In this document: positions 1,803-23,206 of the stretch, one piece after another | Layout of the letters: every line of letters starts with the position of its first letter | Numbering within the stretch: position 1 is the first letter of the stretch | Origin: a virus | Direction: 5' to 3' (one strand) | Virus record (IMG/VR): IMGVR_UViG_3300034283_002260 | Location: 1 to 31,611 of that record | DNA length: 31,611 nucleotides | The notes under the pieces: model-generated | Told to the model about the DNA's origin: nothing | Databases searched by the model: none | Seen by the model: the letters and a program-made list of their open reading frames with translations, nothing else | Program-made: the position numbers and the translations under genes

Positions 1803-2000
1803 TCACCACTTCTTAATAGGACATCTAGCATCCAGTAAAGAAGTCTTAAGTTTCATAAAACATCCACACTTGCTGCACTTGTTAAACTTAGGTTTGTAAA
1901 ACTCGCAAGCCCTACAAATTTCGAGACGGTATTCAGCCAATTCTTCTGGCGATCTTGGTGATCCATTAATCAAATCCCAAGGCTTAACATCATCACTCAT
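1803..2000 (-). CDS. DUF6171-like zinc-ribbon protein, 65 aa
   Basis: The sequence has CRAC (C29, C32), then CSKCGCFMKLKT (C42, C45, C47) and a closing ARCPIKKW (C60). This pattern matches the DUF6171 family of small, probably zinc-binding phage and bacterial proteins of unknown function. I placed the start at the second Met (MSDDVKPW) because a TATAAT box on this strand (2008-2013) ends 7 nt upstream of it, giving a leaderless mRNA; the longer form (ATG at 2009) would start inside the -10 box. It is the only minus-strand gene in the left arm. Confidence 0.75.
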   Translation of the reverse strand: MSDDVKPWDLINGSPRSPEELAEYRLEICRACEFYKPKFNKCSKCGCFMKLKTSLLDARCPIKKW

Positions 2001-2007
2001 ACAAACC

Positions 2008-2013
2008 ATTATA
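2008..2013 (-). promoter_or_regulatory. -10 box for minus-strand DUF6171 gene
   Basis: Reads TATAAT on the minus strand, 7 nt before the ATG at 2000. This predicts transcription starting at or 1-2 nt from the start codon. Confidence 0.6.
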
Positions 2014-3264: not shown

Positions 3265-3996
3265 ATGGCAAAAAGTATGGACTTTCCAGACACATCAAAA
3301 AAGAAAAAATACTCAGAAACAGTTAATCAAACACAAGCAACTGGTACTCAATATGTCGCTGTTCCTGGAATGCAGGGGGTACAAGGAGAGCAAGGACCCA
3401 AAGGAGATAGGGGAGAACAAGGCCCTAAAGGCGATAAAGGCGAAAAAGGAGATAGAGGCCTTACAGGTCCACAGGGAGAGCGAGGGGAGCCAGGAAAGGG
3501 TGCTGAAGGCTATGATAGCGTATCTGGACAATACCCAGGATGGGCATACTATAAAAATAAAAATTTACAAGAAGTAAGGCTTGGCCCAGAAAGAGGAGAT
3601 GATGGATGGGTATTAATAAATTTTATAAAAGATGAAGAAAAGTCAAACGAAATATACATTCCTAAAGGAGTAAACACTTTATGGAACAATGAATCAAAAA
3701 ATTTTAATTTTAAAACCTTAAAAATTGGAGCAAGGGTAGATGTAAGATATGACTTTACCATAACCACATATATGAACAATACAGAGGTTTGGACTAGGCT
3801 ATTTGTTCCAAACTATGATAACTCCCCAACAGGATATGTCTCAACATTAAAATATCAATATTCTTATGATATATCTTATAACCAAACCATATATGTTGAT
3901 GCCCAAAGAATTCGTACTTTAGGTGGTGCTATACAGTTTCGAGCAGATAATGAAAGCAATATAGCCTTAAATGGTATCTATATCTCTGTTTCTTAG
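3265..3996 (+). CDS. Collagen-like virion fibre protein, 243 aa
   Basis: A Lys-rich head (residues 1-34) is followed by an uninterrupted Gly-X-Y tract at residues 35-79 (14 triplets starting GMQ GVQ GEQ GPK GDR). Such tracts form triple helices and are common in phage tail fibres. A 160-residue beta-rich C-terminal domain (about 84-243) probably acts as trimerisation or receptor-binding head. In the tract, Pro is mostly in the X position and Lys occurs in the Y position (GPK, GPK, GDK, GEK). Y-position Lys or Pro are the residues that animal lysyl and prolyl hydroxylases modify. Eight hydroxylase genes lie downstream, so it is a candidate substrate (inference). Only a weak ribosome binding site is visible. 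Confidence 0.85.
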   Translation: MAKSMDFPDTSKKKKYSETVNQTQATGTQYVAVPGMQGVQGEQGPKGDRGEQGPKGDKGEKGDRGLTGPQGERGEPGKGAEGYDSVSGQYPGWAYYKNKNLQEVRLGPERGDDGWVLINFIKDEEKSNEIYIPKGVNTLWNNESKNFNFKTLKIGARVDVRYDFTITTYMNNTEVWTRLFVPNYDNSPTGYVSTLKYQYSYDISYNQTIYVDAQRIRTLGGAIQFRADNESNIALNGIYISVS

Positions 3997-4413: not shown

Positions 4414-5006
4414 TGACTGAGGTCATACTATCTAATGATGACTTAACAGTTTTAGGTCCACCTGATACCGTCGAAGTTTTAGTAGACATAGGACCAACAG
4501 GAACTCGTGGCAGTCAAGTATTTGTTGGTATTGGAGATCCAAATATTATTGAAATTGGTCAAACCCCTATTTTAAATGATCTTTATATAAATGCTTCTCC
4601 TGGAGAAGATTATTCTTACCTTTATCAATATGTTTCAGAACCTGGTGGAGATTTATGGGTTGAAATCCTTAAATTAAATCCAACAATATATTCTAAAAAT
4701 TTTTTAACATCTTTTTCTGATGGAGAAGCACAAATTGTTATTCCAATTTCAAGCATAGTTAGTGTATCTGGTGCACCATTAATTATAGAAAATTTTAGTA
4801 TTCAATATACTATTAGAAATAATAACCCCGTTGCATCTTCAATGATACTTCCAGCCCTCGCTGGTGCAGGTGAAGATTTGGTAATTAACTTAAAGGCGGT
4901 TGAATATACCCTAGACTCTGGACCATCTGCAGATTGGCAAGCGCTAGAAGGTACAGTGGGTGTTGATATTTTTATAACAATAGTGGCAGAGAATGAAGAA
5001 TCGTAA
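4413..5006 (+). CDS. Putative tail protein with short collagen-like element, 197 aa
   Basis: TAATG overlap with the RGD-protein gene. The N-terminus has 'VLVDIGPTGTRGSQVFVGIGDP', a two-triplet collagen-like stub (GPT GTR G) typical of phage tail-fibre adaptor segments. The rest is beta-rich, with no cysteines or enzymatic motif. Most likely a tail-tip or fibre component. The promoter of the following fibre gene lies just after its stop. Confidence 0.6.
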   Translation: MTEVILSNDDLTVLGPPDTVEVLVDIGPTGTRGSQVFVGIGDPNIIEIGQTPILNDLYINASPGEDYSYLYQYVSEPGGDLWVEILKLNPTIYSKNFLTSFSDGEAQIVIPISSIVSVSGAPLIIENFSIQYTIRNNNPVASSMILPALAGAGEDLVINLKAVEYTLDSGPSADWQALEGTVGVDIFITIVAENEES

Positions 5007-5022
5007 TATGGATAAAAAAATG

Positions 5023-5031
5023 TGTTATAAT
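5023..5031 (+). promoter_or_regulatory. Extended -10 promoter TGTTATAAT
   Basis: Perfect -10 with TGn. The predicted start at about 5038 coincides with the GAGGTG ribosome binding site, leaving a leader of about 13 nt before the ATG at 5051. Confidence 0.65.
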
Positions 5032-5050
5032 TATTCCGAGGTGATACATT

Positions 5051-5770
5051 ATGGCAGTTGAAAGTATTGGTACATTAGTACCAACAAAGATCCCAGGTTT
5101 ATCGGATGCAGCAGACATCCAAGCAGCACTAAGAGCATACCACTATGGCTCTTACACATTTGACACAGCAGAGTCAGATGCAAATAATTTAATTAATCCA
5201 TCTATTGCATACACAATCAATAATTTGCAAAGTCAAATTACAGCAGCAGTAGATGACTATGTAGATGAAGATATTTTAACAGCAAAAGGCTCATTAATTA
5301 CTGCATCAGCAGCGTCTACCCCAGTTCAATTAGAAATTGGAACTAATGGACATGTCCTTACTGCAAATTCTTCAGCGACATACGGACTTGAGTGGGCAGC
5401 CCCAGCAGTAACTGCATCAAACACAGTAACTTTAACAAACAAAACTTTAACAGCACCAATTGCTACATTAGCAACAAACGCACAAACAGCCTCTTATACA
5501 TTAGTATTAGCAGATCAAAGCGACATTGTAGAAATGAACGTTGGATCTGCAAATAACTTAACAGTTCCACCAAATGGCGATGTTGCTTTTCCAACAGGAA
5601 CAGTTATTACAATCCTACAAACAGGTTCTGGACAAACCACACTTGTCGCAGGAAGCGGAGTAACAGTAAACGGTTCTCCAGGATTAAAATTAAGAGGACA
5701 ATGGTCTAGCGCAACTTTAGTAAAGCGTGATACAAATACTTGGGTTGCTATAGGAGATTTAACCGCATAA
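5051..5770 (+). CDS. Tail-fibre protein, 239 aa
   Basis: Low-complexity, Ala/Thr/Asn-rich beta protein typical of tail fibres. It contains 'TVTLTNKTLTAPI' (around residues 123-137), a motif shared with the fibre proteins at 16933 and 19307. The C-terminal part (FPTGTVITILQTGSGQTTLV, then GSPGLKLRGQWSSATLVKRD) is a beta-sandwich found at the ends of many phage fibre proteins. GAGGTG ribosome binding site. Coupled through TAATG to the Fn3-Hint gene. Confidence 0.8.
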   Translation: MAVESIGTLVPTKIPGLSDAADIQAALRAYHYGSYTFDTAESDANNLINPSIAYTINNLQSQITAAVDDYVDEDILTAKGSLITASAASTPVQLEIGTNGHVLTANSSATYGLEWAAPAVTASNTVTLTNKTLTAPIATLATNAQTASYTLVLADQSDIVEMNVGSANNLTVPPNGDVAFPTGTVITILQTGSGQTTLVAGSGVTVNGSPGLKLRGQWSSATLVKRDTNTWVAIGDLTA

Positions 5771-6720
5771 TGTTAAACTTACTTGGGGCAGCAGCATCTG
5801 GAGGTGGACGTACACCTGGTACACCTACTATTGGTACAGCAACTGGTGGCGTTGTTGAAGCCTCTGTTGCATTTACTGCTCCAAGTTATTTAGGAAAACC
5901 ATCAAGTAATAATATTTATACAGTAACTTCATCTCCAGGCGGTGTTACAGCAACTGGAGCATCATCTCCAATTACAGTAACTGGATTAACAGCAGGTACC
6001 GCATATACATTTACAGTTACATTAAGCACAAGAACATCAGATAACACTATTATTCGTACAAGCGCAGCCTCATCAGCAAGTAACTCAGTTACCCCAACAG
6101 CACCAGGACCATTCTTTCCGCCATTCTTCCCATTCTTCCCATTTTTCCCAGGATTTGGACCATTCTTTCCACCGTTCTTCCCATTCTTCCCACCATTTTT
6201 CCCACCGTTTTTCCCACACTTCCCATCAAAGTGTATTCATGAAGATACATTAATCAAAACTCCAACTGGGTATATTGCAGCCAAAGACTTAAACGTTGGA
6301 GACAAAGTATATTCAGTAGATCTTGTTGAGTTAGCGAATGAAGATGTTGATTCTGATGAAATTAATTACATAAATTTTGATTCTACAACTCTAACTTCAC
6401 AATCTGGCTTAGTTGAAACTACAATTGTAAATGCTCTGCCTAATGCAAAAGATGAATTCATGTATTTTAATAATGAAGAAAATATTAAGTTTTCTTTGGA
6501 GCAACCAATGTTCGTAAAAAGAGAAAACGAATACGAAGTTCTTCCATCAGGAATGGTTCAACAAGGAGATTACTTACTAAAAATTGATGACAGTGGAAAT
6601 ATTGTTGAGTCCTTAGTAGAAGCAATAACAATAGTTGAAGAGTCATGCATGACCTACTTGTTTGACTGTGAACCACAGGATTGGTTTATCGCAGGCGGTT
6701 ATTTAGTTCACAACAAATAA
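5770..6720 (+). CDS. Fn3 - Phe/Pro tract - Hint domain protein, 316 aa
   Basis: ATG 5770 overlaps the upstream stop; an in-frame start at 5740 would run into the fibre gene. Domains: fibronectin-III-like beta sandwich (about 18-109); a 40-residue tract at 113-152 of 20 Phe, 16 Pro, 3 Gly and 1 His (PFFPPFFPFFP pattern); then a Hint (intein/hedgehog-type autoprocessing) domain from Cys155 to the C-terminus. Intein block A (CIHEDTLIKTPTGYIAAKDL, then GDKVYSVD) is clear and the C-terminal block ends GGYLVHNK. Where block B normally has TxxH, this protein has SLEQ (about 242-245), so the helper His is missing. Only Lys follows the terminal Asn, so splicing is not possible; cleavage or ligation remains possible. 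Probably a virion surface protein. Confidence 0.8.
   Translation: MLNLLGAAASGGGRTPGTPTIGTATGGVVEASVAFTAPSYLGKPSSNNIYTVTSSPGGVTATGASSPITVTGLTAGTAYTFTVTLSTRTSDNTIIRTSAASSASNSVTPTAPGPFFPPFFPFFPFFPGFGPFFPPFFPFFPPFFPPFFPHFPSKCIHEDTLIKTPTGYIAAKDLNVGDKVYSVDLVELANEDVDSDEINYINFDSTTLTSQSGLVETTIVNALPNAKDEFMYFNNEENIKFSLEQPMFVKRENEYEVLPSGMVQQGDYLLKIDDSGNIVESLVEAITIVEESCMTYLFDCEPQDWFIAGGYLVHNK
6106..6225 (+). repeat. Phe/Pro-coding tandem repeat
   Basis: Imperfect repeats of CCATTCTTCCC-type units with codon-level variation (TTC/TTT, CCA/CCG) encode the PFFP tract of the Hint protein. Such repeats are prone to slippage, so length variation between strains is expected. Confidence 0.8.
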
Positions 6721-6749: not shown

Positions 6750-7325
6750 GTGAAAATTTATAGATTTGAAGATTTTGTTTCTGAGAAAGACCAACAGAGT
6801 ATTCTTGCATTTTGCAAAAATAATCCAAAATGGTCTTCAACCACGGGAGATAAAAAGTTTTCTAGTCAACAAAAAAATATGGTTAGCGCCAATGGTGATA
6901 ATACACATCTTCTTGATATAGATGAAACAATGCAAATACTGGATAAGTATAACCACGAAATAGCAAGGGTATTACATCAGGAAAACCTTATACAAAATAA
7001 TGTTTTTGGTATGCCTCCAACCCTATTTAAATACTCAAAAGGTTATAGCCTACCATTGCACATGGATACCAAATACTCCAAATGGATCACTTACGCTTCT
7101 GTTATATACTTTAATGATGAATATGATGGTGGAGAGTTATCATTTCCAAATTTAAATGTTAGCATTAAGCCAAAAGCAAGAGAGTTAATTATTTTTTCAC
7201 AAACAGAAGATGACTACTATCATGAAATAAAAAGAATTAAAGATGGCATAAGATATTCAAGTGCCACTTGGTGGGGATCAGAAGAAGAGCAAGAAAACAA
7301 TGTCATTGGTTACAACTTTAAGTGA
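6750..7325 (+). CDS. 2OG-Fe(II) dioxygenase, prolyl-4-hydroxylase-like (copy 1), 191 aa
   Basis: Double-stranded beta-helix dioxygenase that would couple 2-oxoglutarate decarboxylation to hydroxylation. Iron ligands are intact: H104-x-D106 (LHMD) and distal H158 (YYHEI). R168 (GIRYSS) fills the place of the residue binding the 2OG carboxylate. The family signature 'VIYFNDEYDGGELSFP' precedes the distal part. GTG start behind a strong AAGGGGG ribosome binding site. First of eight copies; the next gene overlaps its 3' end. Substrate unknown: protein proline, lysine or a small molecule. Confidence 0.9.
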   Translation: MKIYRFEDFVSEKDQQSILAFCKNNPKWSSTTGDKKFSSQQKNMVSANGDNTHLLDIDETMQILDKYNHEIARVLHQENLIQNNVFGMPPTLFKYSKGYSLPLHMDTKYSKWITYASVIYFNDEYDGGELSFPNLNVSIKPKARELIIFSQTEDDYYHEIKRIKDGIRYSSATWWGSEEEQENNVIGYNFK

Positions 7326-7758
7326 AAGATCCTGCGGAAGTTGTACAAAATGTTGTGAAGGCTGGCTTTCTTCAAACATAAGGGGACACAGAATGTATCC
7401 TGGAAAACCTTGTTTTTTTGTTGAGATAAGCAAAGGCTGTACAGATTATGAAAATAGACCTGCAATACCTTGCAAGGTTTTTAATTGCGAATGGATAAAA
7501 AATGTCAAACTTCCAGAAGAATTTAAGCCAAATAATATAGGCTTTATTATTCAAAAAAAATATCTAAAAAAGAGTGAGTACTATTCTTTAGTTCCAGCAA
7601 GCCAAACAATAGTCGTTGAAAATATTAAAAATATATCTAATTGGTTTAACCAAAATAGCATAAATTTCTTTTATATTTATGATAATGAAAAATATTTTTC
7701 GGGAGATGAAGAGTTTTTAAAAAAATGCTATAATGATAAAGAGTTTTTAAAAGTATAA
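7300..7758 (+). CDS. YkgJ-like Cys-cluster (zinc/iron-chelating) protein, 152 aa
   Basis: The N-terminal half carries the CxxCxxCC cluster of the YkgJ/UPF0153 family (CGSCTKCCEGW), then PGKPCFFV, KGCTDYENRP and PCKVFNCEW, all Cys positions expected for that metal-chelating domain. ATG 7300 was preferred to the GTG at 7261 because the signature begins soon after it; the gene overlaps copy 1 by 26 nt. The C-terminal half is helical and unrecognised. Set between two Fe(II) enzymes, it may load or buffer iron, which is inference from context; the biochemical role of the family is not settled. Confidence 0.8.
   Translation: MSLVTTLSERSCGSCTKCCEGWLSSNIRGHRMYPGKPCFFVEISKGCTDYENRPAIPCKVFNCEWIKNVKLPEEFKPNNIGFIIQKKYLKKSEYYSLVPASQTIVVENIKNISNWFNQNSINFFYIYDNEKYFSGDEEFLKKCYNDKEFLKV
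7726..7734 (+). promoter_or_regulatory. Extended -10 promoter TGCTATAAT
   Basis: Lies in the 3' end of the YkgJ-like gene, about 43 nt before the ATG at 7777. Would give a leader of about 36 nt with a GAGGG ribosome binding site. Confidence 0.4.
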
Positions 7759-7776
7759 AATGAATGAGGGAAAAAT

Positions 7777-8334
7777 ATGATGGATAAAGAGTCTTACGAT
7801 ATTCTAGTAGATAAGATTGGAAGTTCAACTGATAACATATTGGTAATAAATAATTTTCTTACCGAAGAAGAATGTGACTTAATAGTTAACAATCTAAATA
7901 CAAAGACTGCATTAAGTTTGACTGGGTTTTGGGAAAATAGAATTTTTTCTGAATTTTCTTTTCCTAAAGAATGTAAAAGTATTCTTAAAAAATATAGAAT
8001 TAAATCTCATGCCCAAGTAAAAAAAATATATGGCGATACTTTATTGGCCAATTCTATGAATCAACATATAGTCAAGTGGCCAGAAGGTCCAGGCATGGAA
8101 GAGCACATAGATGATGAAGCAAAAGAAAGATCTCACTATCATATAGCGTCTGTTTTGTATTTAAATGATAATTACGATGGAGGAGAGATTAATTTCCCTC
8201 AGCACAATCTTTCTATAAAGCCAAAAAAGGGAGATTTATTAATTTTCCCAGGGAATCAAAACTACGCTCATGAAGTTAAAGAGATACTGTCTGGTGAAAG
8301 ATTTACTGCTCCTGGCTGGTATAGATTTTTATAA
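7777..8334 (+). CDS. 2OG-Fe(II) dioxygenase, prolyl-4-hydroxylase-like (copy 2), 185 aa
   Basis: Iron ligands H110-x-D112 (EHIDD) and H165 (YAHEV), with R175 (GERFTAP) at the 2OG position. Signature 'VLYLNDNYDGGEINFP'. The N-terminal segment 'LVINNFLTEEECDLIV' is the usual entry strand and helix of phage and bacterial P4H-like proteins. GAGGG ribosome binding site; an alternative ATG lies one codon downstream. A strong promoter for the next group of hydroxylases lies directly after it. Confidence 0.9.
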   Translation: MMDKESYDILVDKIGSSTDNILVINNFLTEEECDLIVNNLNTKTALSLTGFWENRIFSEFSFPKECKSILKKYRIKSHAQVKKIYGDTLLANSMNQHIVKWPEGPGMEEHIDDEAKERSHYHIASVLYLNDNYDGGEINFPQHNLSIKPKKGDLLIFPGNQNYAHEVKEILSGERFTAPGWYRFL

Positions 8335-8341
8335 AATTTAC

Positions 8342-8369
8342 TTGACATAAAAATAGCAAGTGGTATAAT
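8342..8369 (+). promoter_or_regulatory. Consensus sigma70-type promoter (TTGACA -16- TATAAT)
   Basis: TTGACA at 8342-8347, 16-nt spacer, TATAAT at 8364-8369 with TGG extension. This is the only promoter in the window with perfect -35, -10 and extended elements. The start would be at about 8376, giving a leader of about 14 nt with an AGGGGG ribosome binding site for the ATG at 8390. Confidence 0.85.
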
Positions 8370-8389
8370 TAATGATATAGGGGGAATAT

Positions 8390-9136
8390 ATGGAAATAGT
8401 AAATAATGGCATTACTCATTGGACCGAATTGCCAAGAGAAGAAGAATTAACAAAAAGAATTCCAACAAGAATTATTGATAACGACATTACCGTTGTTAAC
8501 TTAGACTATGGGATTAATTTATACAAAAATGCAATCAAAAAAGATGAATGTCAAAATATAATTAATGCTTTAGAATCAGAAATTGCTTTGGGTGTTCCTG
8601 GAATACAATGGCGAGGTGCACAGGTTAACGGAAAAGAAGATGTTGAATTTGTAAGAAACTGTGTAGACTTAAAATATAAGAAAGAAAACTTAGGAAAACA
8701 CATTCCTTTTAGTCAAAAACTTTTTGATATTCATGAAAGTGTAGAAAAAAGTTTAGACTACTGCTTAAAACACTATGAGTCTTTGTGGCACTTAAAAATG
8801 GACTATAAGGAAGCGTTTAACTTTGTCAAATATCTTCCAGGCAAATATTTTAAAATTCATAATGACCATGGCCCATACTATGTTTGTACGATTTCTGCTG
8901 TTGTATACCTAAATGATAATTATGACGGTGGAGAGATAGAGTTTACTAGACATGGATTAACAATAAAGCCAGATGCAGGAGATATTGTCTTGTTCCCATC
9001 AAACTTTGTTTATGAGCATGCGTCTTTAGAGATTACTTCTGGTGTAAAATATTCTGTAGTTATTATGACAGACTATAATGATCTGCATCACAAAGATGAA
9101 ATAGGATATAAAAAGAAAGATCCTAATAATGACTAA
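8390..9136 (+). CDS. 2OG-Fe(II) dioxygenase, prolyl-4-hydroxylase-like (copy 3, Lys subtype), 248 aa
   Basis: Iron ligands H157-x-D159 (IHNDHG) and H210 (YEHAS). The 2OG-binding basic residue is Lys220 (GVKYSVV) rather than Arg; collagen prolyl-4-hydroxylases also use Lys here. Signature 'VVYLNDNYDGGEIEF'. Longer than copies 1-2 because of an N-terminal extension (about 1-50). It is closely related to copy 4 (9929): both have 'EAFNFVKY/IKY' before the HxD, an extra His after the Asp, and a 'DYN..H..E' C-terminus. Driven by the strongest promoter of the cluster; overlaps the DUF6065-like gene by 8 nt. Confidence 0.9.
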   Translation: MEIVNNGITHWTELPREEELTKRIPTRIIDNDITVVNLDYGINLYKNAIKKDECQNIINALESEIALGVPGIQWRGAQVNGKEDVEFVRNCVDLKYKKENLGKHIPFSQKLFDIHESVEKSLDYCLKHYESLWHLKMDYKEAFNFVKYLPGKYFKIHNDHGPYYVCTISAVVYLNDNYDGGEIEFTRHGLTIKPDAGDIVLFPSNFVYEHASLEITSGVKYSVVIMTDYNDLHHKDEIGYKKKDPNND

Positions 9137-9920
9137 TTCTGAAGATATTATTGAAAATTTAATAACATTTAATTCACAAAAACCTTGGCTAAATGAAACA
9201 AGCAACTCTACTCCATCCACAACTCAAAAAACAATACCTCAGTGGTATAAAGATGCAGATAGATTTGCAAAAAATACAAATACTGGAGAATATTATCAGG
9301 CAACAAAAGAAATATGTCCAGTTGCAAAAGAAGGTACGGAATCAGACTATGGAAAAGTCCCTACTTGGAAAGCATGTCCAGGAATTATGGATGGATTTTT
9401 AACTGGATATGTTCTTAAAACTCCGTGTGACCTTAAATTTTTTAAAAATAGCAATGGAATTATTGACGTCAAAATTTCTGACGCAAGATATAAAGATTTT
9501 TGCACTCAAAGATCTCCTATGCCACAATTTGAACATCCTGTAGGCTACGATAAAAATCATTTTGCATGGTATTCAGATTGGGGATTAAGTTTGCCAGAAG
9601 GATATAGCGCATTATTTATAACACCAATGAATAGATTTGATTTACCGTTTTTGAATACAACTGGAATTATTGATTGTGATAAGGTAAATCTATTAGGAAC
9701 TTTTCCATTTTTTGTTATAGATGGATGGGAAGGAATCCTTAAGGCTGGAACGCCATATATGCAAGTTATCCCTTTTAAAAGAGAGGATTGGAGTCATAAA
9801 ATAAATATTACAAATATAAAAGATATCTATCCAAACTTCAAAAAAAATATAGATTTATATAGACAGCCAGACGGCGGTATTTATAAGAATCAAGTATGGT
9901 CTAAACGAGAATACAGATAG
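9129..9920 (+). CDS. DUF6065-like protein (first copy), 263 aa
   Basis: Contains 'TIPQWYKDADRF' and 'CPGIMDGFLTGYVLKTPCDL' in the first half, then 'GYSALFITPMNRFDLPFLNT', 'FPFFVIDGWEGILKAGTPYM' and 'QVIPFKREDW'. This order matches uncharacterised beta-rich proteins often found in T4-like cyanophages and related to DUF6065. It aligns by eye with the product of 10585-11328 (G-[YW]-x-L, LF-x-[TI]-[PN]P-x-N-x-F, I-x-KAG-x-P, IIP/VIP). It sits between two Lys-subtype hydroxylases and overlaps the first by 8 nt, suggesting a partner or shared-substrate role (inference). No catalytic motif recognised. Confidence 0.65.
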   Translation: MTNSEDIIENLITFNSQKPWLNETSNSTPSTTQKTIPQWYKDADRFAKNTNTGEYYQATKEICPVAKEGTESDYGKVPTWKACPGIMDGFLTGYVLKTPCDLKFFKNSNGIIDVKISDARYKDFCTQRSPMPQFEHPVGYDKNHFAWYSDWGLSLPEGYSALFITPMNRFDLPFLNTTGIIDCDKVNLLGTFPFFVIDGWEGILKAGTPYMQVIPFKREDWSHKINITNIKDIYPNFKKNIDLYRQPDGGIYKNQVWSKREYR

Positions 9921-9928
9921 GATAAAAA

Positions 9929-10582
9929 ATGAGCAATTGGACAGAAAAAATAAATCATGGCAATGGTATAGTTTGTTACAAAGGTGTACTTAAAAAAAAG
10001 TTAAATATTATTGATAGACTTGAATCAAACCTTTCAGAGGTTGGTAGTCCAAATCGTTTTAGTTGGCTTCCAGCATATGTTGGATATAAACAACTTATAC
10101 CTGATTACAGAGATTGTGTAGACTTTAAATTTAAAAAAACTGACTTACAAGGTGATATTAGTACTAAATCTGTACAACTTCAAGAACTTTGGCAAGATGT
10201 TTACGATGCTCAATTGCCACCAGTTGAAGATTATTGTAAAGATTATAATATTTATGAATTAAAATACTGGGAAGCCTTTAACTTTATAAAGTATGGTCCA
10301 GGACAGCATTTTCAAGAGCACCACGATCATGGATATTCTTATAACTGTACAGTTTCTTTAGTTGGATATATTAATGATGACTATGATGGTGGAGAGTTAT
10401 TTTTTAGACTACAAGGTTTAAACATAAAACCAGAGGCTGGAGATTTGTTTGTATTCCCGTCAAACTTTATGTACCCACATAGAGCGATGCCTGTTCATTC
10501 TGGAACAAAATACTCAATTGTAACAATGCTTGACTATAACAAAAAGTTTCATACCCAAGAAATGTATACTGAAGATAAATAA
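9929..10582 (+). CDS. 2OG-Fe(II) dioxygenase, prolyl-4-hydroxylase-like (copy 4, Lys subtype), 217 aa
   Basis: Iron ligands H131-x-D133 (EHHDHG) and H184 (YPHRA), with Lys194 (GTKYSIV) at the 2OG position. Signature 'VGYINDDYDGGELFF'. Nearest relative in the window is copy 3 (8390). AGGAT ribosome binding site 8 nt after the DUF6065-like gene; 2 nt before the second DUF6065-like gene, so the four genes 8390-11328 form two hydroxylase/DUF6065 pairs. Confidence 0.9.
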   Translation: MSNWTEKINHGNGIVCYKGVLKKKLNIIDRLESNLSEVGSPNRFSWLPAYVGYKQLIPDYRDCVDFKFKKTDLQGDISTKSVQLQELWQDVYDAQLPPVEDYCKDYNIYELKYWEAFNFIKYGPGQHFQEHHDHGYSYNCTVSLVGYINDDYDGGELFFRLQGLNIKPEAGDLFVFPSNFMYPHRAMPVHSGTKYSIVTMLDYNKKFHTQEMYTEDK

Positions 10583-10584
10583 CT

Positions 10585-11328
10585 ATGCTTAATATTTCAG
10601 TTGAAAAAACGATGAACTCTAACATAGAGATTCGTCCAATGTCAATAAAAAGGGATTGGATGGACAATACCGCACAAGGACATGCCTATAGATGCTTTCC
10701 AGTAACACAGGCAAATGTAATTGGTTGGAGTCTCTCATCTACTAAAGATATACGTTTTACTTGGAATGGGACAATTGATCAAACTTCCGATACTGTTACC
10801 ATAACAGAGGGAAATGACTTTGCATATACTGGAAGAGGTCAAGGAACTGTAAGTTTTAATACTGGATTAGTTTTTAAAACAGAATCAAATATTAGTTTAT
10901 TCACAATTAATCCAGTAAATTATTTTAATAACGATTTTGAAGTTATGTCTTCTTTAGTATCTACATCTTTTTATGACAACCCTATTCCTTTGGCAATTAG
11001 AGCAAAAACTCCTAATCAAGAAATTATTATAAAGGCGGGATCTCCACTTGCCACAATAATTCCTATTTCTTTAACTAGTCTTGATAACACTTCTATTGAA
11101 ATATTTGATTATGTTGATAAAAATAATAAAAGGGCAAATGCCAACAAAAAATATGGTGAGGCTGCTCAAGCAATAAATCAAACAGGTGGATGGACAGACT
11201 GGTATAGAAATGCAGTTAATGAAAAAGGCGATATATTGGGAGAACATGAAACAAAAACCTTAAAACTTTCTGTAAAAGATAGTAGAAAACAAGAAGGCTT
11301 TATTCGCTCAAAAGAGGATAGGGTATAA
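10585..11328 (+). CDS. DUF6065-like protein (second copy), 247 aa
   Basis: Matches the DUF6065 layout well. It has 'RDWMDNTAQGHAYRCFPVTQ' (about 24-43), then 'ANVIGWSLSS' and 'FTWNG', 'GQGTVSFNTGLVFKTESNIS' in the middle, 'LFTINPVNYF', and 'IIIKAGSPLATIIPIS' near 175. The family is uncharacterised; bacterial members often sit near 2OG-dioxygenase or sugar-related genes, which is a recollection and not checked. Only 2 nt from copy 4 and without a clear ribosome binding site, so translation is probably coupled. The promoter for the next group lies at its 3' end. Confidence 0.7.
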   Translation: MLNISVEKTMNSNIEIRPMSIKRDWMDNTAQGHAYRCFPVTQANVIGWSLSSTKDIRFTWNGTIDQTSDTVTITEGNDFAYTGRGQGTVSFNTGLVFKTESNISLFTINPVNYFNNDFEVMSSLVSTSFYDNPIPLAIRAKTPNQEIIIKAGSPLATIIPISLTSLDNTSIEIFDYVDKNNKRANANKKYGEAAQAINQTGGWTDWYRNAVNEKGDILGEHETKTLKLSVKDSRKQEGFIRSKEDRV

Positions 11329-11329
11329 T
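11324..11329 (+). promoter_or_regulatory. -10 box TATAAT before copy 5
   Basis: Perfect TATAAT (no TG extension), overlapping the end of the preceding gene and 6 nt before the ATG at 11336. Leaderless mRNA predicted. Confidence 0.55.
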
Positions 11330-11335
11330 ATTATT

Positions 11336-12013
11336 ATGCAAAATATTAAAAATATAAAAACAGTAAAAAGAACACCATCAATCACACCATCTGGATTTTT
11401 TGGAAATAAAAAAGAAATGATAGTTGAACTAGAAAATTTTATGACTCAAGAAGAAATAGATTTTTTAGAAAATGCTGCAAAATCTATTACGATTTGGGAT
11501 GTAACAGAAAGCCACGTTAATGAAAATGGCACAGTCGTTTACGATTCTGATTATTGGAAAGATAGAGTTGCTACAAGGCCAACTTTAGATAAAAATGATC
11601 CTACAATTGGTCCTGTTATTTCTGGGTTATTTGAAAGATTGCAGCCAATAATTGAAAAATTTTATCAAGTAAAAGTAAAGCCAACTGGGACCACCATTGT
11701 TAAATGGCTTCCTGGACAGTTTCAAAATCCACATGCAGACAAAGAGTTGCATGATGGCCCAGACGCTGGTTTACCAAATGATTTTCCAAACTATGACCTA
11801 TCAAGTTTATTTTATTTAAATGATGATTATGAAGGGGGAGAATTATATTTTCCTCTTCAAGATATAAAATTTAAACCAAAAAAAGGTGCTGCTTATTTTT
11901 TTCCAGGAGATAAAAATTATATACATGGGGTAACAGAAATAAAAAGTGGTATAAGATATACATGTCCATTTTTTTGGGAAATAACAAAGCACACAGGAGA
12001 TAGACAACCATGA
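11336..12013 (+). CDS. 2OG-Fe(II) dioxygenase, prolyl-4-hydroxylase-like (copy 5), 225 aa
   Basis: Iron ligands H133-x-D135 (PHADK) and H197 (YIHGV), with R207 (GIRYTCP) at the 2OG position. Signature 'LFYLNDDYEGGELYFP'. Between HxD and the signature is an insertion (ELHDGPDAGLPNDFPN) that may shape the substrate channel. N-terminal 'MIVELENFMTQEEIDFLENA' is the normal entry segment. The stop overlaps the next start (ATGA), beginning a tight run of four hydroxylases. Confidence 0.9.
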   Translation: MQNIKNIKTVKRTPSITPSGFFGNKKEMIVELENFMTQEEIDFLENAAKSITIWDVTESHVNENGTVVYDSDYWKDRVATRPTLDKNDPTIGPVISGLFERLQPIIEKFYQVKVKPTGTTIVKWLPGQFQNPHADKELHDGPDAGLPNDFPNYDLSSLFYLNDDYEGGELYFPLQDIKFKPKKGAAYFFPGDKNYIHGVTEIKSGIRYTCPFFWEITKHTGDRQP

Positions 12014-12768
12014 ATTTAAGTAACAAAAAAAGAATAACAAAAGATATTGTGGTATATGAAAACTTTTTAGATAAAGAAACCTCTGCTAAAATTGTAAAGG
12101 TTTTAGATAAACATGCAGAAAGCGGAAGTATTTCTTGGATGCCAATATCTTTTTATGAATCGTATTCTTCAGTTTTACCATTAGATAATGATGAAGAGAT
12201 TATTGCTCTTGGTTTAAGTCCAACTATTTTTTCTGATATTGAAAAAACAATGCCAGAAGCAATAGCATCTGTACATGATCTTGACCCAAAAACAATTTGT
12301 AAGATTGGATACCATACACAAAAGTGGGAGCCAGGAGCATATGCAAGAATGCATTCAGATAATACAGATGCTGAAGGAAATTCTGGAGCATTTACAAGGA
12401 GTAGATATGCTGGGTTTCTTTATTTAAATGATGACTTTGAAGGTGGGCTATTAAAGTTTCCAGATCAAAATATAGAGATTAAACCACAGGTAGGAATGCT
12501 TGCTGTTTTTGATGGGGGATTTAATAATATGCATGAAGTATCATTAATAGAAAGCGGAGTAAGATACACAATAGGATCTTTTTGGGACGACAGAGAAGAA
12601 GACGCTTACCCACAAGAAGTAAGAGATGCTTGGGCAAAAGAAATGAAGGCAACAAGGGCACAGCAAGAGATTGAAAGGGCAGAGTGGCAAAATCTTTTAA
12701 AACAAGGGTATAAAATTGATAAAAGGGGTAATAAATATAAGATAGGACTGGATGACAAAAATGTCTAA
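12010..12768 (+). CDS. 2OG-Fe(II) dioxygenase, prolyl-4-hydroxylase-like (copy 6), 252 aa
   Basis: Iron ligands H115-x-D117 (MHSDN) and H175 (NMHEV), with R185 (GVRYTIG) at the 2OG position. Signature 'FLYLNDDFEGGLLKFP'. It has a C-terminal extension of about 60 residues (EDAYPQEVRDAWAKEMKATR, then AQQEIERAEWQNLL and a basic end) that is helical and absent from the other copies; it could mediate oligomerisation or protein binding. ATGA overlap upstream and 17-nt overlap downstream. Confidence 0.9.
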   Translation: MNLSNKKRITKDIVVYENFLDKETSAKIVKVLDKHAESGSISWMPISFYESYSSVLPLDNDEEIIALGLSPTIFSDIEKTMPEAIASVHDLDPKTICKIGYHTQKWEPGAYARMHSDNTDAEGNSGAFTRSRYAGFLYLNDDFEGGLLKFPDQNIEIKPQVGMLAVFDGGFNNMHEVSLIESGVRYTIGSFWDDREEDAYPQEVRDAWAKEMKATRAQQEIERAEWQNLLKQGYKIDKRGNKYKIGLDDKNV

Positions 12769-13420
12769 TTTTTTAAAAAAAGAACTTGAAGCAAATAACT
12801 TTCAATGTGTAGATATTAGTAATGAGATTTTATCTATAGAAAATTTTTTATCTAAAGAAGAATTAGATACTATTTTAAAAATTATAGAAAAAACTCCAGA
12901 AGAAAAATGGGGCATTGAATATACAAAAAATTTAAAACGTTTCTGTAGAGATAAGTTTGGAAGAGACGATGTTGAAAATTTAATAGCAGAGGGCAAGTAT
13001 GAAGTTACTCAAAATTGGGGGGATAAAAATCTTAACATAAATCATTCACCAATATATAGAGTAATTCATTCAAGGCTAGACGATATAGTACAAAAGGTAG
13101 ACCCTAATTTACAATTAAGTGGTTTTGCTACTCTTCAAAGAATGCAACCAGGAGTAGAGTTAAAGCCACATACTGATCAAAACACAGACCCATCAATTGT
13201 TGGGGCTGCAATATTATATTTAAATGATGACTATACAGATGGCCAGTTATTTTTTGAAAACTTTAAAATTGAATTAAAACCAAAACCAGGAACCCTACTT
13301 CTTTTTCCAGGAAATTCAGAGTACGAACATGGAGTGCGTGTAGTTGGCCCTGGCCCAATAAGATATGTTATTGTTGGTTTTATTAAAGTAAAAGGTTTTT
13401 ACATGAACAATAAGTACTAG
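12752..13420 (+). CDS. 2OG-Fe(II) dioxygenase, prolyl-4-hydroxylase-like (copy 7), 222 aa
   Basis: Iron ligands H140-x-D142 (PHTDQ) and H193 (YEHGV), with R204 (PIRYVIV) at the 2OG position. Signature 'ILYLNDDYTDGQLFF' departs from the usual DGGE (D-G-Q). The N-terminal helix region includes 'EILSIENFLSKEELDTIL'. The start could also be the ATG at 12761, three codons later. Overlaps copy 6, so translation is likely coupled. Confidence 0.9.
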   Translation: MTKMSNFLKKELEANNFQCVDISNEILSIENFLSKEELDTILKIIEKTPEEKWGIEYTKNLKRFCRDKFGRDDVENLIAEGKYEVTQNWGDKNLNINHSPIYRVIHSRLDDIVQKVDPNLQLSGFATLQRMQPGVELKPHTDQNTDPSIVGAAILYLNDDYTDGQLFFENFKIELKPKPGTLLLFPGNSEYEHGVRVVGPGPIRYVIVGFIKVKGFYMNNKY

Positions 13421-13434
13421 AGAAAAGGATAAAA

Positions 13435-14064
13435 ATGAAAAAAGAAATACTTGAAGAAAAAGTGTATTACTATACAGAAGTAATCGAAGATCCTAAAAAA
13501 CTTGTTGAAGCCATTGAAGATGACAACAAAAATCCTTGGGGCGAATGGATGGCCTGTAGTGGACAAGCATATGTTTATGGGACAGACAAAAGTATATCTT
13601 CATCAGATTCAGCAGATGAAAAAAATAATTATATTTATTCAACATTACAAAAGGCTTTTGATGATGTAGCAAGAGACTATGCAAATGCTCAGGGTATTAC
13701 TGATGAACCAAAACTTTTTCCAATGTATCCAATTAAAAAATATATGCCTGGAACTTTTATGGGAGCACATTTTGATCAACAAGAAGGTGACGAAAGACTT
13801 AAAGTTTCTTTTGTTTTGTATTTAAATGACGACTATGAGGGTGGAGAAATATCTTTTACTATTGCATCACCAAATGGAGTTTTAAAAAATGCAAGTCCAG
13901 AGCCAGATTTTGCTTTAGCAGAACAAAAAGGTGGTTATACTTTTGCAGTAAAACCAAAAGCGGGAAGTATAATTGTTTTCCCACCATCTCCTCCATATCA
14001 TCATACAGCCCATTTGGTTAAAAGCGGATATAAATATATGGTTCCACAACACTGGATTCATTAA
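13435..14064 (+). CDS. 2OG-Fe(II) dioxygenase, prolyl-4-hydroxylase-like (copy 8, Lys subtype), 209 aa
   Basis: Iron ligands H112-x-D114 (AHFDQ) and distal H190 (YHHTAH; chosen because it lies 10 residues before the 2OG residue, as in the other copies). Lys200 (GYKYMVP) is at the 2OG position. Signature 'VLYLNDDYEGGEISF', followed by an insertion (about 142-168, SPNGVLKNASPEPDFALAEQ) that separates the two sheets. The most divergent copy. AAAGGAT ribosome binding site; ends 8 nt before the following hypothetical gene, whose AGAGGT site begins here. Confidence 0.88.
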   Translation: MKKEILEEKVYYYTEVIEDPKKLVEAIEDDNKNPWGEWMACSGQAYVYGTDKSISSSDSADEKNNYIYSTLQKAFDDVARDYANAQGITDEPKLFPMYPIKKYMPGTFMGAHFDQQEGDERLKVSFVLYLNDDYEGGEISFTIASPNGVLKNASPEPDFALAEQKGGYTFAVKPKAGSIIVFPPSPPYHHTAHLVKSGYKYMVPQHWIH

Positions 14065-14072
14065 GAGGTATT

Positions 14073-14540
14073 ATGGGGGAAGAATTAAATAAATCTCATA
14101 ATGAAATGATTCAAGAATATTTATTTAACATAAATAATAGTAAGACTAGTCTGTATATGTTAACTGTAGCAAGAGATGGTGAAGAGCCAGTTAGAAGCAT
14201 CTTGTTCTACAATAACGCCATAGAGGCATCATCGGCCTATAACAAATACACAGACTGGGGATTTGCCAAAAACTTTTTAACGGTTTGCCTTTACGAACCA
14301 TCAGGCAGTATTAATACAAAAATATTAAAAAGAGATCAGGCTGGAGAATGCACGTTTGTTAGACAAGACTATATAGAGGCTCAAAGCATTATTGAAAGTA
14401 TAAAGGCAAAAGTTGACTATGAAGTATACAAAGAAATTTCTTTAAAATTTATGAGGCTATTTGCAAAAGATAATTGGAGATTTGATGGAGATCGTTTTTT
14501 AAAAAATTTAGGCATACAGGAAGACTATCCAGAGTATTAA
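14073..14540 (+). CDS. Hypothetical protein, 155 aa
   Basis: Last gene of the hydroxylase cluster. Not recognised. It has a compact alpha/beta first domain (about 27-90: SLYMLTVARDGEEPVRSILF, then NNAIEASSAYNKYTDWGFAK and TVCLYEPSG) resembling small single-sheet regulatory domains. A helical, charged C-terminal half follows (SIIESIKAKVDYEVYKEISL). AGAGGT ribosome binding site. It is convergent with the lysozyme gene, and its stop codon overlaps the T run of that gene's terminator. Confidence 0.7.
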   Translation: MGEELNKSHNEMIQEYLFNINNSKTSLYMLTVARDGEEPVRSILFYNNAIEASSAYNKYTDWGFAKNFLTVCLYEPSGSINTKILKRDQAGECTFVRQDYIEAQSIIESIKAKVDYEVYKEISLKFMRLFAKDNWRFDGDRFLKNLGIQEDYPEY

Positions 14541-20548: not shown

Positions 20549-22579
20549 ATGTCAGATACCTTTTCTTTTCGTTTACTAGAGGACTTTGTAGCAAAGTATA
20601 AAGATACTCCACCCCCATTTGGATTCTCAGATGCTGGCTCAAATTCTTTAGGTGAGATAACTTTTATAAGAACCTACTCACGTATGAAAGAAGACGGTAC
20701 AAAAGAAAGATGGTATGAAGTCTGTAAGCGTGTAATTGAAGGTATGTATTCAGTTCAAAAAAATCATGCTAAAGAAAATCGTCTACCATGGAATGACAAC
20801 AAGGCTCAAAAGTCTGCTCAGGAGGCATTCCAAAGAATGTTTGAATTAAAGTGGACACCACCAGGTCGTGGACTATGGGCATTTGGCACCCCTATGACTA
20901 TGGATAAACGCAACTCTGCTGCCTTGCAAAACTGTGCAATGGTATCTACTCGTGATATTGATCGCAATGATCCAGGAGCCTTATTTGCATGGGTTATGGA
21001 TGCATTAATGTTGGGTATAGGTGTAGGCTTTGATACTCTAGGACAAGAAAAAGAAATGTTAATTTATGCCCCAACAGAGCCACCCTCAATATATGAAATT
21101 CCTGATACTAGAGAAGGATGGGTTGAGTCTGTAAGATTATTAATAAATTCATATCTTCGTCCAAACCAGCCTATACAGCAGTTTGAATATAGCCTTATTA
21201 GACCTTTGGGGGCACCTATCAAGGGCTTTGGTGGGGTAGCCAGTGGTCCAGGACCATTGATGGATTTACATACCCGCATTACAAAGATTGTAGGATCTAG
21301 AGCAGGAGACAAGTTTGATTCTCGTGCAATTGTGGATATTATTAATCTTATTGGTACTTGCGTTGTTTCTGGTAATGTTCGTCGTTCCGCTACCCTCGCT
21401 TTAGGAAATGCAGAAGACAAAGACTTTAGTAATTTAAAAAATGCAGAAGTTTTTCCAGAGCGTAATTCTTATGATCCAAAAAATCCAGGGTGGGCTTGGA
21501 TGTCTAACAACTCTATTGCTGCAGAGGTTGGAACAAACTATGAAGATTATGTTGATTTAATTGCAGATAATGGAGAGCCAGGATTTATTTGGCTAGATGT
21601 TGCTCGCAATTACGGAAGACTAGCAGATGCACCAGATGGCAAAGATTATCGTGTAATGGGTTTTAATCCATGTGCAGAACAACCATTAGAATCATACGAA
21701 CTATGTACATTAGTAGAAGTTCACTTAAACCGTCACGAAGATAAAGAAGATTTTCTTCGTACACTAAAGTTTGCGTATCTATATGGAAAAACTGTAACCC
21801 TGATGCCAACACATTGGCAAACCACAAATGGCATTATGCAACGTAATCGTCGTATTGGGACATCTTTGACTGGTATTGCATCTTTTGCAGATACAAAGGG
21901 TATGCCAGCAGTTCGTGAATGGATGGACGAAGGGTATAAAAAAATTAAAGCATACGATCATTCATACTCAGAATGGTTGTGTGTACGTGAATCAATTCGT
22001 GTAACTACCGTCAAACCTTCAGGATCTGTTTCACTACTTTCTGGTGCAACACCAGGAGTTCATTGGGGTCCAGGAGGAGCATTTTATCTACGTGCTATAA
22101 GGTTTGGAAATACAGACCCAATGCTTCATTTATTTAAAGCAGCAGGGTATAAAGTTGAAGCAGACTTAGTTTCTGCCAACACTTCAGTAGTATATTTCCC
22201 AGTAGCATCTGGACATCCACGTTCTGAAAAAGATGTAAGTCTTTTTGAAAAGATTGGTTTGGCTGCTACCGCTCAAAAATACTGGTCTGATAATGGGGTA
22301 TCTGTAACTCTATCATTTGATAAAGAAACAGAAAAGAAACATGTTGCTCCAGCACTTCATCTTTATGAGGGTGAATTAAAGGCTGTTTCATTCTTACCAA
22401 TGGGTAATGAAACATTTCCACAACAGCCATATAACAATATTACAAGAGAAGAATACAATTCTTACGTAGGCAAAATTGCAAAGATTGACTGGTCTGCCAT
22501 CTATGATGGAGTAGAAAATCTAGAAGCACAAGGTGAAGCCTATTGCAGTACAGACGCTTGTGAGATAAAATTATACTAA
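20549..22579 (+). CDS. nrdJ: Adenosylcobalamin-dependent ribonucleoside-triphosphate reductase (class II), 676 aa
   Basis: Reduces ribonucleotides to deoxyribonucleotides using adenosylcobalamin to make a thiyl radical; supplies dNTPs for phage DNA. The monomeric RTPR type is indicated by 'GRGLWAFGTPM' and redox Cys129 in 'ALQNCAMVST', plus 'GNVRRSATLALG' (276-287). The active-site 'NPCAEQPLES' has thiyl Cys375 and Glu377, with Cys386 close by (YELCTLVE). 'VKPSGSVSLLSGATPGVHWG' follows, then a C-terminal CxxxxC reducing pair (C666, C671) in 'YCSTDACEIKLY'. Length is near the family's 700 or so. All essential residues are present. First gene of a run with a B12-binding-like protein and an adenosyltransferase. 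Confidence 0.95.
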   Translation: MSDTFSFRLLEDFVAKYKDTPPPFGFSDAGSNSLGEITFIRTYSRMKEDGTKERWYEVCKRVIEGMYSVQKNHAKENRLPWNDNKAQKSAQEAFQRMFELKWTPPGRGLWAFGTPMTMDKRNSAALQNCAMVSTRDIDRNDPGALFAWVMDALMLGIGVGFDTLGQEKEMLIYAPTEPPSIYEIPDTREGWVESVRLLINSYLRPNQPIQQFEYSLIRPLGAPIKGFGGVASGPGPLMDLHTRITKIVGSRAGDKFDSRAIVDIINLIGTCVVSGNVRRSATLALGNAEDKDFSNLKNAEVFPERNSYDPKNPGWAWMSNNSIAAEVGTNYEDYVDLIADNGEPGFIWLDVARNYGRLADAPDGKDYRVMGFNPCAEQPLESYELCTLVEVHLNRHEDKEDFLRTLKFAYLYGKTVTLMPTHWQTTNGIMQRNRRIGTSLTGIASFADTKGMPAVREWMDEGYKKIKAYDHSYSEWLCVRESIRVTTVKPSGSVSLLSGATPGVHWGPGGAFYLRAIRFGNTDPMLHLFKAAGYKVEADLVSANTSVVYFPVASGHPRSEKDVSLFEKIGLAATAQKYWSDNGVSVTLSFDKETEKKHVAPALHLYEGELKAVSFLPMGNETFPQQPYNNITREEYNSYVGKIAKIDWSAIYDGVENLEAQGEAYCSTDACEIKLY

Positions 22580-22589
22580 GGGAGATAAA

Positions 22590-23045
22590 ATGAAAAAAAT
22601 ACTAGCATCATTAGCAATTTTTATAGCAGTTGGAGCAACACTGTTTGTTATAGACAAACCAGATGACAACTGTATAAATCTTTATGTTGATTATGGAGTT
22701 TTAGATAATCAAACAAAGTTAGAAAAATGTGTAGAATCATTTAGCAGCATTCTTGCTTTAGATGTTTTAAAACAAGCCAACCTTAAAATAGAAGGTACTA
22801 AAAAGTATGGACTTGGCGTGGTTTGTAGAGTTAATGGTTTGCCAGATGAAAAGGCAGAGTCTTGTGAAGTTATGCCACCCGCAGAAGCGTATTGGGCAAT
22901 TATTATTAAAGAAAAACAAGTTATTCCATTTCCACGTAATGAGTGGGGTTGGGGACAACTTGCCATAGATCAACAATATTTAAATCTAGGAGACTCAGTT
23001 GGATTGGTTTGGACTGGTCCTAAAGGAGAGTTAATATTTCCATGA
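22590..23045 (+). CDS. Secreted transcobalamin/DUF4430-like protein, 151 aa
   Basis: Hydrophobic signal or anchor at residues 4-20. The body reads 'NLYVDYGVLDNQTKLEKCVE', 'ALDVLKQANLKIEGTKKYGL', 'GVVCRVNGLPDE', 'CEVMPPAEAYWAIII' and 'EWGWGQ'. This is the pattern of DUF4430/transcobalamin C-terminal-like domains in secreted actinobacterial proteins (V-D-F/Y-G, paired Cys, PPA-x-AYW). Cys79 and Cys92 may form the conserved disulphide. In transcobalamin that domain helps hold cobalamin. Between nrdJ and the adenosyltransferase this suggests corrinoid binding at the cell surface, but the family function is inferred and not proven. GGGAGA ribosome binding site. Confidence 0.7.
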   Translation: MKKILASLAIFIAVGATLFVIDKPDDNCINLYVDYGVLDNQTKLEKCVESFSSILALDVLKQANLKIEGTKKYGLGVVCRVNGLPDEKAESCEVMPPAEAYWAIIIKEKQVIPFPRNEWGWGQLAIDQQYLNLGDSVGLVWTGPKGELIFP

Positions 23046-23206
23046 GATTAGCCTATAAAGAATTAGATAATGTTATAGAGTTTCCGTTACAAAAAAAGAA
23101 ACCTACTAAAATTGAGTACGCATTTCAATTGGTTATAAATTTGGTTGGACTTTATATAGCCAACAATATTACAGTTGATATCTGGCGTTCTTTGACAGGA
23201 CACTAA
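23042..23206 (+). CDS. Small protein with possible membrane helix, 54 aa
   Basis: ATGA overlap with the upstream gene and TAATG overlap with the adenosyltransferase gene, so it is a real member of the run. A basic middle segment (QKKKPTKIEYAF) is followed by a moderately hydrophobic stretch (about 28-40, FQLVINLVGLYIA) and an aromatic end (ITVDIWRSLTGH). It may associate with the membrane. Not recognised. Confidence 0.65.
   Translation: MRLAYKELDNVIEFPLQKKKPTKIEYAFQLVINLVGLYIANNITVDIWRSLTGH

Follow-up and report, generated by a model that had tools for sequence, protein, structure and literature searches.

A tandem array of eight prolyl hydroxylase-like oxygenase genes in an aquatic phage as a candidate modification cassette for a Phe-Pro fiber protein

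2-Oxoglutarate (2OG)-Fe(II) oxygenases are among the commonest unexplained genes of phages, and the stretch of DNA analyzed here, the 31,611-nucleotide IMG/VR record IMGVR_UViG_3300034283_002260 (the window), carries eight of the prolyl 4-hydroxylase (P4H) type between positions 6750 and 14064, which raises the question of what one phage would do with so many. We consider it likely that the array belongs to a mobile fiber-modification cassette of an aquatic actinophage and would hydroxylate the Phe-Pro tail of a fiber protein encoded next to it. An earlier note on this DNA had suggested many distinct substrates or a complex decorating system; the gene neighborhoods described below favor the latter and make it specific by a likely substrate, the Phe-Pro tail next door, while many distinct substrates appear less likely than this single, repetitive one. 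The window record is itself a 31.6-kb fragment, and nearly all records compared with it are metagenomic fragments.

The gene directly upstream of the array (5770-6720) encodes an fn3-like protein with an (FPPFFPFF)n repeat. P4H cassettes of relatives occur at two sites, either ahead of a lysozyme-like gene, the arrangement seen in the window, or between fiber genes and the ribonucleotide reductase (RNR) gene, and at both sites the upstream gene encodes an fn3-like protein with an (FPPFFPFF)n tail. The tails of relatives consist of ∼54% F and ∼42% P, with FPP, PPF, and FPF as the main contexts. Repeats were scored by a filter for proline plus aromatic residues and by the PFFP count, a plain proline-richness filter being dominated by Gly-rich genes read in antisense. 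Upstream sequence of 2.5 kb or more was available for 44 cassettes, and the repeat gene lay upstream in 40 of them, or in 41 when a shorter repeat in locus L374 was counted; the exceptions were L156 and L157, which have a different module type, and L215. Because selection on P4H was to be avoided, the reverse search used the repeat alone, as a DNA pattern for PFFPPFFPFF, in 2.9 million viral contigs. Results revealed P4H genes downstream of the repeat in 73 of the 77 loci whose downstream sequence reached 3 kb or more, and in 71 of these 73 there were at least two. The four exceptions comprised L379 and L391 (six P4H genes elsewhere on the contigs), L407 (short), and L418 (none on a 38-kb contig), and L440 was a second repeat-bearing contig without P4H. 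The same pattern matched 10 times in 84,980 cellular genomes, and the sole cellular open reading frame (ORF) with two repeat matches was accompanied by three P4H ORFs on its 5.3-kb contig.

Presence and absence of the two components agreed as well. Loci spanning both sites had neither in 24 cases and both in 3, with none discordant; at the RNR site, after de-duplication, 27 loci had both, 49 had neither, and the discordant classes held one locus each (Fisher p 1e-18, kinship ignored). The corresponding 2 × 2 tables from the portal set or the SLT set alone were uninformative, because their loci span just one of the two sites. Moreover, in L397, L426, and L478, the portal was only 47 to 49% identical to that of the window and the fifth oxygenase (P4H5) 64 to 78% identical, and the repeat gene still preceded the P4H genes. 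Judged from these gene neighborhoods, the array and the repeat are co-transferred between divergent phages, and their co-occurrence is near-exclusive. In relatives without P4H, the repeat was absent and the corresponding fn3 proteins often had Gly-rich ends. The number of P4H genes rose with the number of tail prolines (rho 0.53, p 0.004, n=27), a weak hint that is uncorrected for kinship. In addition, a short Cys-rich cap closes the Phe-Pro tail in L344, L350, and L372 (e.g., CTYNNCTRYGGYCTCACLYCC) and may form a disulfide-linked or metal-binding tip.

The array itself was re-examined gene by gene. Eight P4H ORFs were recovered at 6750, 7777, 8390, 9929, 11336, 12010, 12752, and 13435, starting exactly where the earlier note had placed them, and all scored above the gathering cutoff of PF13640 (2OG-FeII_Oxy_3; 35.3 to 54.9 bits against 27 bits). 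A six-frame search of the whole record returned the same eight, no further ones, and no internal stops. The genes of the region are as follows.

5770..6720 (+): fn3-like protein, 316 aa, the proposed substrate and likely a tail-fiber or adhesin protein, carrying a Pro-Phe repeat; C terminus Hint/intein-like
6112..6216 (+): Phe-Pro repeat (PFF tail) of this protein, FFPPFFPFFPFFPGFGPFFPPFFPFFPPFFPPFFP
6232..6720 (+): Hint/intein-like C-terminal domain of this protein, first residue C, last residues VHNK; weak Hint_2 match
6750..7325 (+): P4H1 (HMD...H...R); PF13640 E 9.7e-10
7300..7758 (+): Cys-rich small protein, ORF from 7261; insignificant CxxCxxCC match, E 0.61
7777..8334 (+): P4H2 (HID...H...R); PF13640 E 4.4e-14
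8390..9136 (+): P4H3 (HND...H...K), core-cassette orthologue by synteny; PF13640 E 9e-12
9129..9920 (+): DUF6065-like protein a; PHROG 7084 E 6.5e-33; predicted dUTPase-like beta-barrel
9929..10582 (+): P4H4 (HHD...H...K), core-cassette orthologue; PF13640 E 1.8e-14
10585..11328 (+): DUF6065 protein b; PF19541 E 2.7e-31
11336..12013 (+): P4H5 (HAD...H...R), best-conserved core copy; PF13640 E 6.6e-9
12010..12768 (+): P4H6 (HSD...H...R), with C-terminal extension; PF13640 E 2.4e-8
12752..13420 (+): P4H7 (HTD...H...R); PF13640 E 5.1e-11
13435..14064 (+): P4H8 (HFD...H...K), with ∼30-residue insertion; PF13640 E 1.1e-10
14073..14540 (+): hypothetical protein without a Pfam match in the profile search; its homologue lies between DUF6065b and P4H5 in the cassettes of many relatives

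In the alignment, the H-x-D motif of P4H1 to P4H8 reads HMD, HID, HND, HHD, HAD, HSD, HTD, and HFD, the distal His is kept in all eight, and the 2OG anchor is R, R, K, K, R, R, R, and K; H133, D135, and H197 were invariant across an alignment of 36 diverse copies. By these sequence criteria, P4H1 to P4H8 are members of the 2OG-Fe(II) oxygenase superfamily of the P4H type, so that profile scores, six-frame search, and alignment all bear out the eight motif-bearing genes of the earlier note. Its remark that the copies differ in insertions and extensions also held, a long C-terminal extension being found in P4H6 only and an insertion of ∼30 residues in P4H8. The description as one cluster of eight was right in number but needs correction, since two DUF6065/PHROG 7084 genes and the Cys-rich ORF lie inside the array. 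Pairwise identity peaked at 43% (P4H3 versus P4H4) and was otherwise ∼23 to 42% over aligned parts, indicating old paralogues rather than recent duplicates or tandem amplification.

The repeat gene may start at TTG 5740 or at ATG 5770, the latter overlapping the stop of the preceding gene, and its product matched fn3 (E 0.0021) and Hint_2 (E 0.0035) only under the Pfam cutoff. The Hint-like domain at 6232-6720 reads FSLEQPMF in the window and FSLNHPMF in the relative L151; the customary His may thus be missing, which could impair self-cleavage. A tRNA search of the window found none.

The paralogues also appear to have been kept. The ratio of nonsynonymous to synonymous substitution rates (dN/dS) was estimated by NG86 on sampled pairs from ortholog sets of P4H3 to P4H8 over dozens of contigs, and the medians ranged from 0.07 to 0.23, with 0.089 for RNR and 0.097 for the portal; P4H3 to P4H8 are under purifying selection. 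The full motif was present in 544 of the 561 near-full-length P4H ORFs of the window and its relatives, and the motif-lacking ORFs shown were contig-end fragments, regular-expression misses, or a distinct, degenerate paralogue located close to RNR. In a maximum-likelihood tree, P4H3, P4H4, P4H5, P4H6, P4H7, and P4H8 formed separate lineages, while P4H1 and P4H2 were long-branched and of uncertain placement. Motif retention and dN/dS together indicate that the core paralogues P4H3 to P4H8 are old and kept, and on the same grounds decay of the array copies was rejected. The wording "apparently active paralogues" in the earlier note therefore agrees with intact motifs in all eight copies and with the selection seen on P4H3 to P4H8, activity itself being predicted from sequence. 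The P4H-like paralogue near RNR, which lacks H-x-D and is a possible pseudo-enzyme, was observed in L144 (3367-3966), L151 (9687-10286), L152 (5137-5736), and L155 (12689-13288).

An AlphaFold2 (AF2) model was built for P4H5 only, from the alignment of 36 copies, and it was confident (predicted local distance difference test [pLDDT] 90.9, predicted template modeling score [pTM] 0.87). In the structural comparison that the earlier note had proposed, the double-stranded beta-helix core was present in this copy, as in prolyl hydroxylases, and nearest to them: the best Foldseek matches in PDB were the PBCV-1 collagen prolyl hydroxylase, a Chlamydomonas P4H, human P3H1, a bacterial P4H, and PHD2, and VIA-align gave Z 15 to 16.6 against prolyl hydroxylases. 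The closest PDB sequences by profile belonged to the same peptidyl-prolyl hydroxylase class, with the B. anthracis P4H among the nearest prolyl hydroxylases. The nearest solved relatives were mostly protein-proline modifiers, PiuC-type hydroxylases in the list being the exception. The model thus places P4H5 closest to peptidyl-prolyl hydroxylases, with prolyl hydroxylation as its predicted activity.

Relatives in IMG/VR carried 3 to 11 P4H genes per cassette, and the highest number of PF13640 matches on a single contig was 13 (G060, 114 kb), while many close relatives of the window phage carried none. Since a search with P4H2 alone found no close relatives in the viral contigs, the P4H5 alignment was used as the query instead. 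The earlier note had called eight copies far beyond the usual number, which is true of T4-like cyanophages, where at most five scattered 2OG-Fe(II) oxygenase copies are known (PMC3037559), but not within this group: eight is a high number, yet typical of its P4H-bearing members. Cassettes of relatives followed the order P4H3-DUFa-P4H4-DUFb-(hypothetical)-P4H5-(extra)-P4H6-P4H7-P4H8, and a short-chain dehydrogenase gene often came next. Several further genes were noted in or near these modules. L124 encodes a JmjC_2-like protein, a further putative hydroxylase, within its cassette (7796-8383), and homologues of a small Cys-rich DUF6171 protein, encoded at 1803-2009 (-) in the window, often lie between the repeat gene and P4H3. 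An alternative module at the same site in L211, L213, L216, and L120/L121 contains a ∼1,735-aa repeat fiber, a sulfotransferase, DUF6065, and a GT1 glycosyltransferase.

The identity of the phage was also reconsidered. Its portal was 46% identical to those of Streptomyces phages, with many relatives at 79 to 98% identity in IMG/VR. WhiB, an actinobacterial and actinophage regulator, was found in 14 of the 20 records searched (13 of the 19 related contigs plus Actinomycetia phage DSL-LC01 from Dishui Lake). The class II RNR was 61% identical to that of DSL-LC01, which is predicted to infect Actinomycetia (PMC10611076). Portal, RNR, and WhiB together indicate an aquatic actinophage rather than a T4-like cyanophage, so the cyanophage setting suggested earlier did not survive the structural-gene comparison; the source is a lake-water phage that probably has an actinobacterial host. 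No close relative of the cassette was present in the isolate-phage collection searched. The RNR, which is B12 dependent, is followed by a cobalamin adenosyltransferase gene (window 20549-23700), suggesting that the phage supplies its own cofactor step.

Considering these observations, we propose the following scheme. The fn3-like protein, probably a tail-fiber protein, would present a long Phe-Pro repeat near its C terminus, and the downstream P4H-type 2OG/Fe(II) oxygenases would hydroxylate the prolines of this repeat, converting a very hydrophobic tail into a soluble, patterned, and possibly glycosylatable rod or adhesin. Hydroxylation may raise solubility, fix a polyproline-type geometry, and give attachment points; the paralogues may split the contexts (F-P-P, P-P-F, and F-P-F; ring C3 or C4) or take successive steps, with DUF6065a and DUF6065b as putative accessory factors. 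In relatives with glycosyltransferases, hydroxylation would be followed by glycosylation. On a more ambitious reading, which we regard as evenly balanced, the cassette would be a hydroxyproline-writing system for the fiber, in which 5 to 13 P4H enzymes pattern the Phe-Pro repeat and some relatives glycosylate it; this system would be interchangeable with glycine-rich adhesin tips.

Glycosyltransferases of the PF11397 family, which we take to include Gnt1, were detected in or beside modules of L127 (E 1e-19), L119, and L215, DXD-type glycosyltransferases occurred in L126, and an alternative module carried a sulfotransferase. In the Skp1 pathway, Gnt1 transfers N-acetylglucosamine (GlcNAc) onto hydroxyproline (PMC6939170). 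The cassette head of L215 (149-3263) also encodes a tryptophan halogenase (PF04820, E 2e-91) beside its PF11397 glycosyltransferase, and the upstream sequence is then cut off. DUF6065a and DUF6065b are two paralogues of one family (DUF6065/PHROG 7084). The AF2 model of DUF6065a (pLDDT 92) had dUTPases as fold matches (Z ∼9), the profile search gave no PDB sequence match for DUF6065, and its invariant columns were few (W, C, G, G, P, and Y). DUF6065 homologues were also seen in many haloarchaeal tailed viruses near a ribonucleotide reductase gene, for instance, at 5001-5582 in Halophage HF1 (L499).

Several alternatives deserve to be weighed against hydroxylation of the Phe-Pro tail. The usual reading of phage 2OG oxygenases is a host or metabolite role (PMC3037559; PMC10611076), in which the enzymes would reprogram the host, either by using host proteins or small molecules as substrates or by consuming 2-oxoglutarate, with the repeat gene a mere neighbor in a variable region; the titles of matched structures indicate that a bacterial P4H is able to hydroxylate EF-Tu. 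We nevertheless think this unlikely, since the array sits in the tail-fiber region with conserved order and tracks the repeat gene to two sites across divergent phages, and since the many close relatives without P4H imply that phages of this group can take over the host without the array. DNA or nucleotides might instead be the target of the enzymes, DUF6065 being their dUTPase-like partner, as the label "DNA endonuclease" of the PHROG families matched by the copies, the predicted barrel of DUF6065a, and the RNR gene in the same region could suggest. This is the least probable of the readings considered, given that the fold matches are peptidyl-prolyl hydroxylases, that the Tet/JBP profile match is insignificant, that the dUTPase likeness is a predicted fold only, with few invariant columns, and that the cassette tracks the fiber protein and not RNR, which also occurs in phages without P4H. 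The window also holds a collagen-like gene at 3265-3996 (PF01391 E 6.6e-9), whose product could be the substrate, as with the chlorovirus collagen hydroxylases, one of which is the top fold match of P4H5. However, at least 10 of the 24 P4H-less relatives spanning both sites have collagen-like genes, meaning that the collagen gene does not track the array, and the cassette also occurs at the other site, where its neighbor is the Phe-Pro repeat and the collagen gene lies elsewhere, which makes this substrate very improbable.

A further possibility is that the repeat gene and the oxygenases hitchhike as one variable-region block, linked without any enzyme-substrate relation. Fiber regions are recombination hot spots, and most loci are related, leaving few independent contrasts; yet the linkage holds at two sites, despite intervening insertions and with structural proteins less than 50% identical, and P4H count tracks proline count, so that we give mere hitchhiking only a small probability. 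Some observations nevertheless count against enzymes acting on the Phe-Pro tail. L156 and L157 each hold two P4H genes without an FPPFF repeat, and some phages split the repeat gene and the array between sites or are represented by a fragment without the array (L418 and L440). Independent pairs on the RNR tree were few (n=7; 5 concordant, 0 opposed, and 2 tied, p 0.06). No glycosyltransferase was recognized among the annotated genes of the window's cassette, and glycosylation is thus proposed for relatives only. Moreover, adjacency alone is no proof of an enzyme-substrate pair, and substrate specificity is not readable from sequence; catalytic activity, the repeat as substrate, the location of the fiber protein in the virion, and an effect on adsorption are all inferred. 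No account of hydroxylated phage fibers or Phe-Pro repeats was found in the literature, which is weak evidence, as most subscription papers were not covered.

The genomic evidence thus singles out one likely substrate of a large group of phage 2OG oxygenases and provides an enzyme-substrate pair that can be tested directly. If the proposal is true, abundant freshwater phages build or tune their receptor-binding fibers with peptidyl hydroxyproline, of which we found no description for phage virions in the literature, and their cassettes would provide compact prolyl hydroxylases suited to expression in bacteria and of use for new biomaterials. If the hydroxyproline-writing reading is true as well, the system would parallel, in a bacterial virus, the processing of extensin in plants or of collagen in animals.

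Comparison with known systems illustrates both the precedents and the differences. The 2OG-Fe(II) oxygenases of T4-like cyanophages (PHROG 61 and others) belong to the same superfamily, are phage encoded, and gave the strongest isolate-genome matches, but they are at most ∼33% identical among the matches listed and are scattered, with no array or repeat partner reported. In Dictyostelium and Toxoplasma, the Skp1 prolyl hydroxylase is followed by Gnt1 (GT60), which adds GlcNAc to the hydroxyproline, and PF11397 occurs in some related phage modules; however, the Skp1 pathway is eukaryotic and concerns one proline of one protein, and the window is without such a transferase. The PBCV-1 enzyme vCPH (PDB 5c5t/5c5u) shares with P4H5 a virus-encoded P4H fold and is named for acting on a proline-rich repeat protein, but it is a single algal-virus enzyme of 18 to 21% identity, neither arrayed in tandem nor paired with a Phe-Pro repeat. 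In plants and Chlamydomonas, the low-complexity proline repeats of wall proteins are hydroxylated by several P4H paralogues and then glycosylated; the Chlamydomonas/plant P4H (PDB 2jig) has the same fold as P4H5, although these are eukaryotic secretory enzymes whose substrates are Ser-Pro or Pro-rich rather than Phe-Pro.

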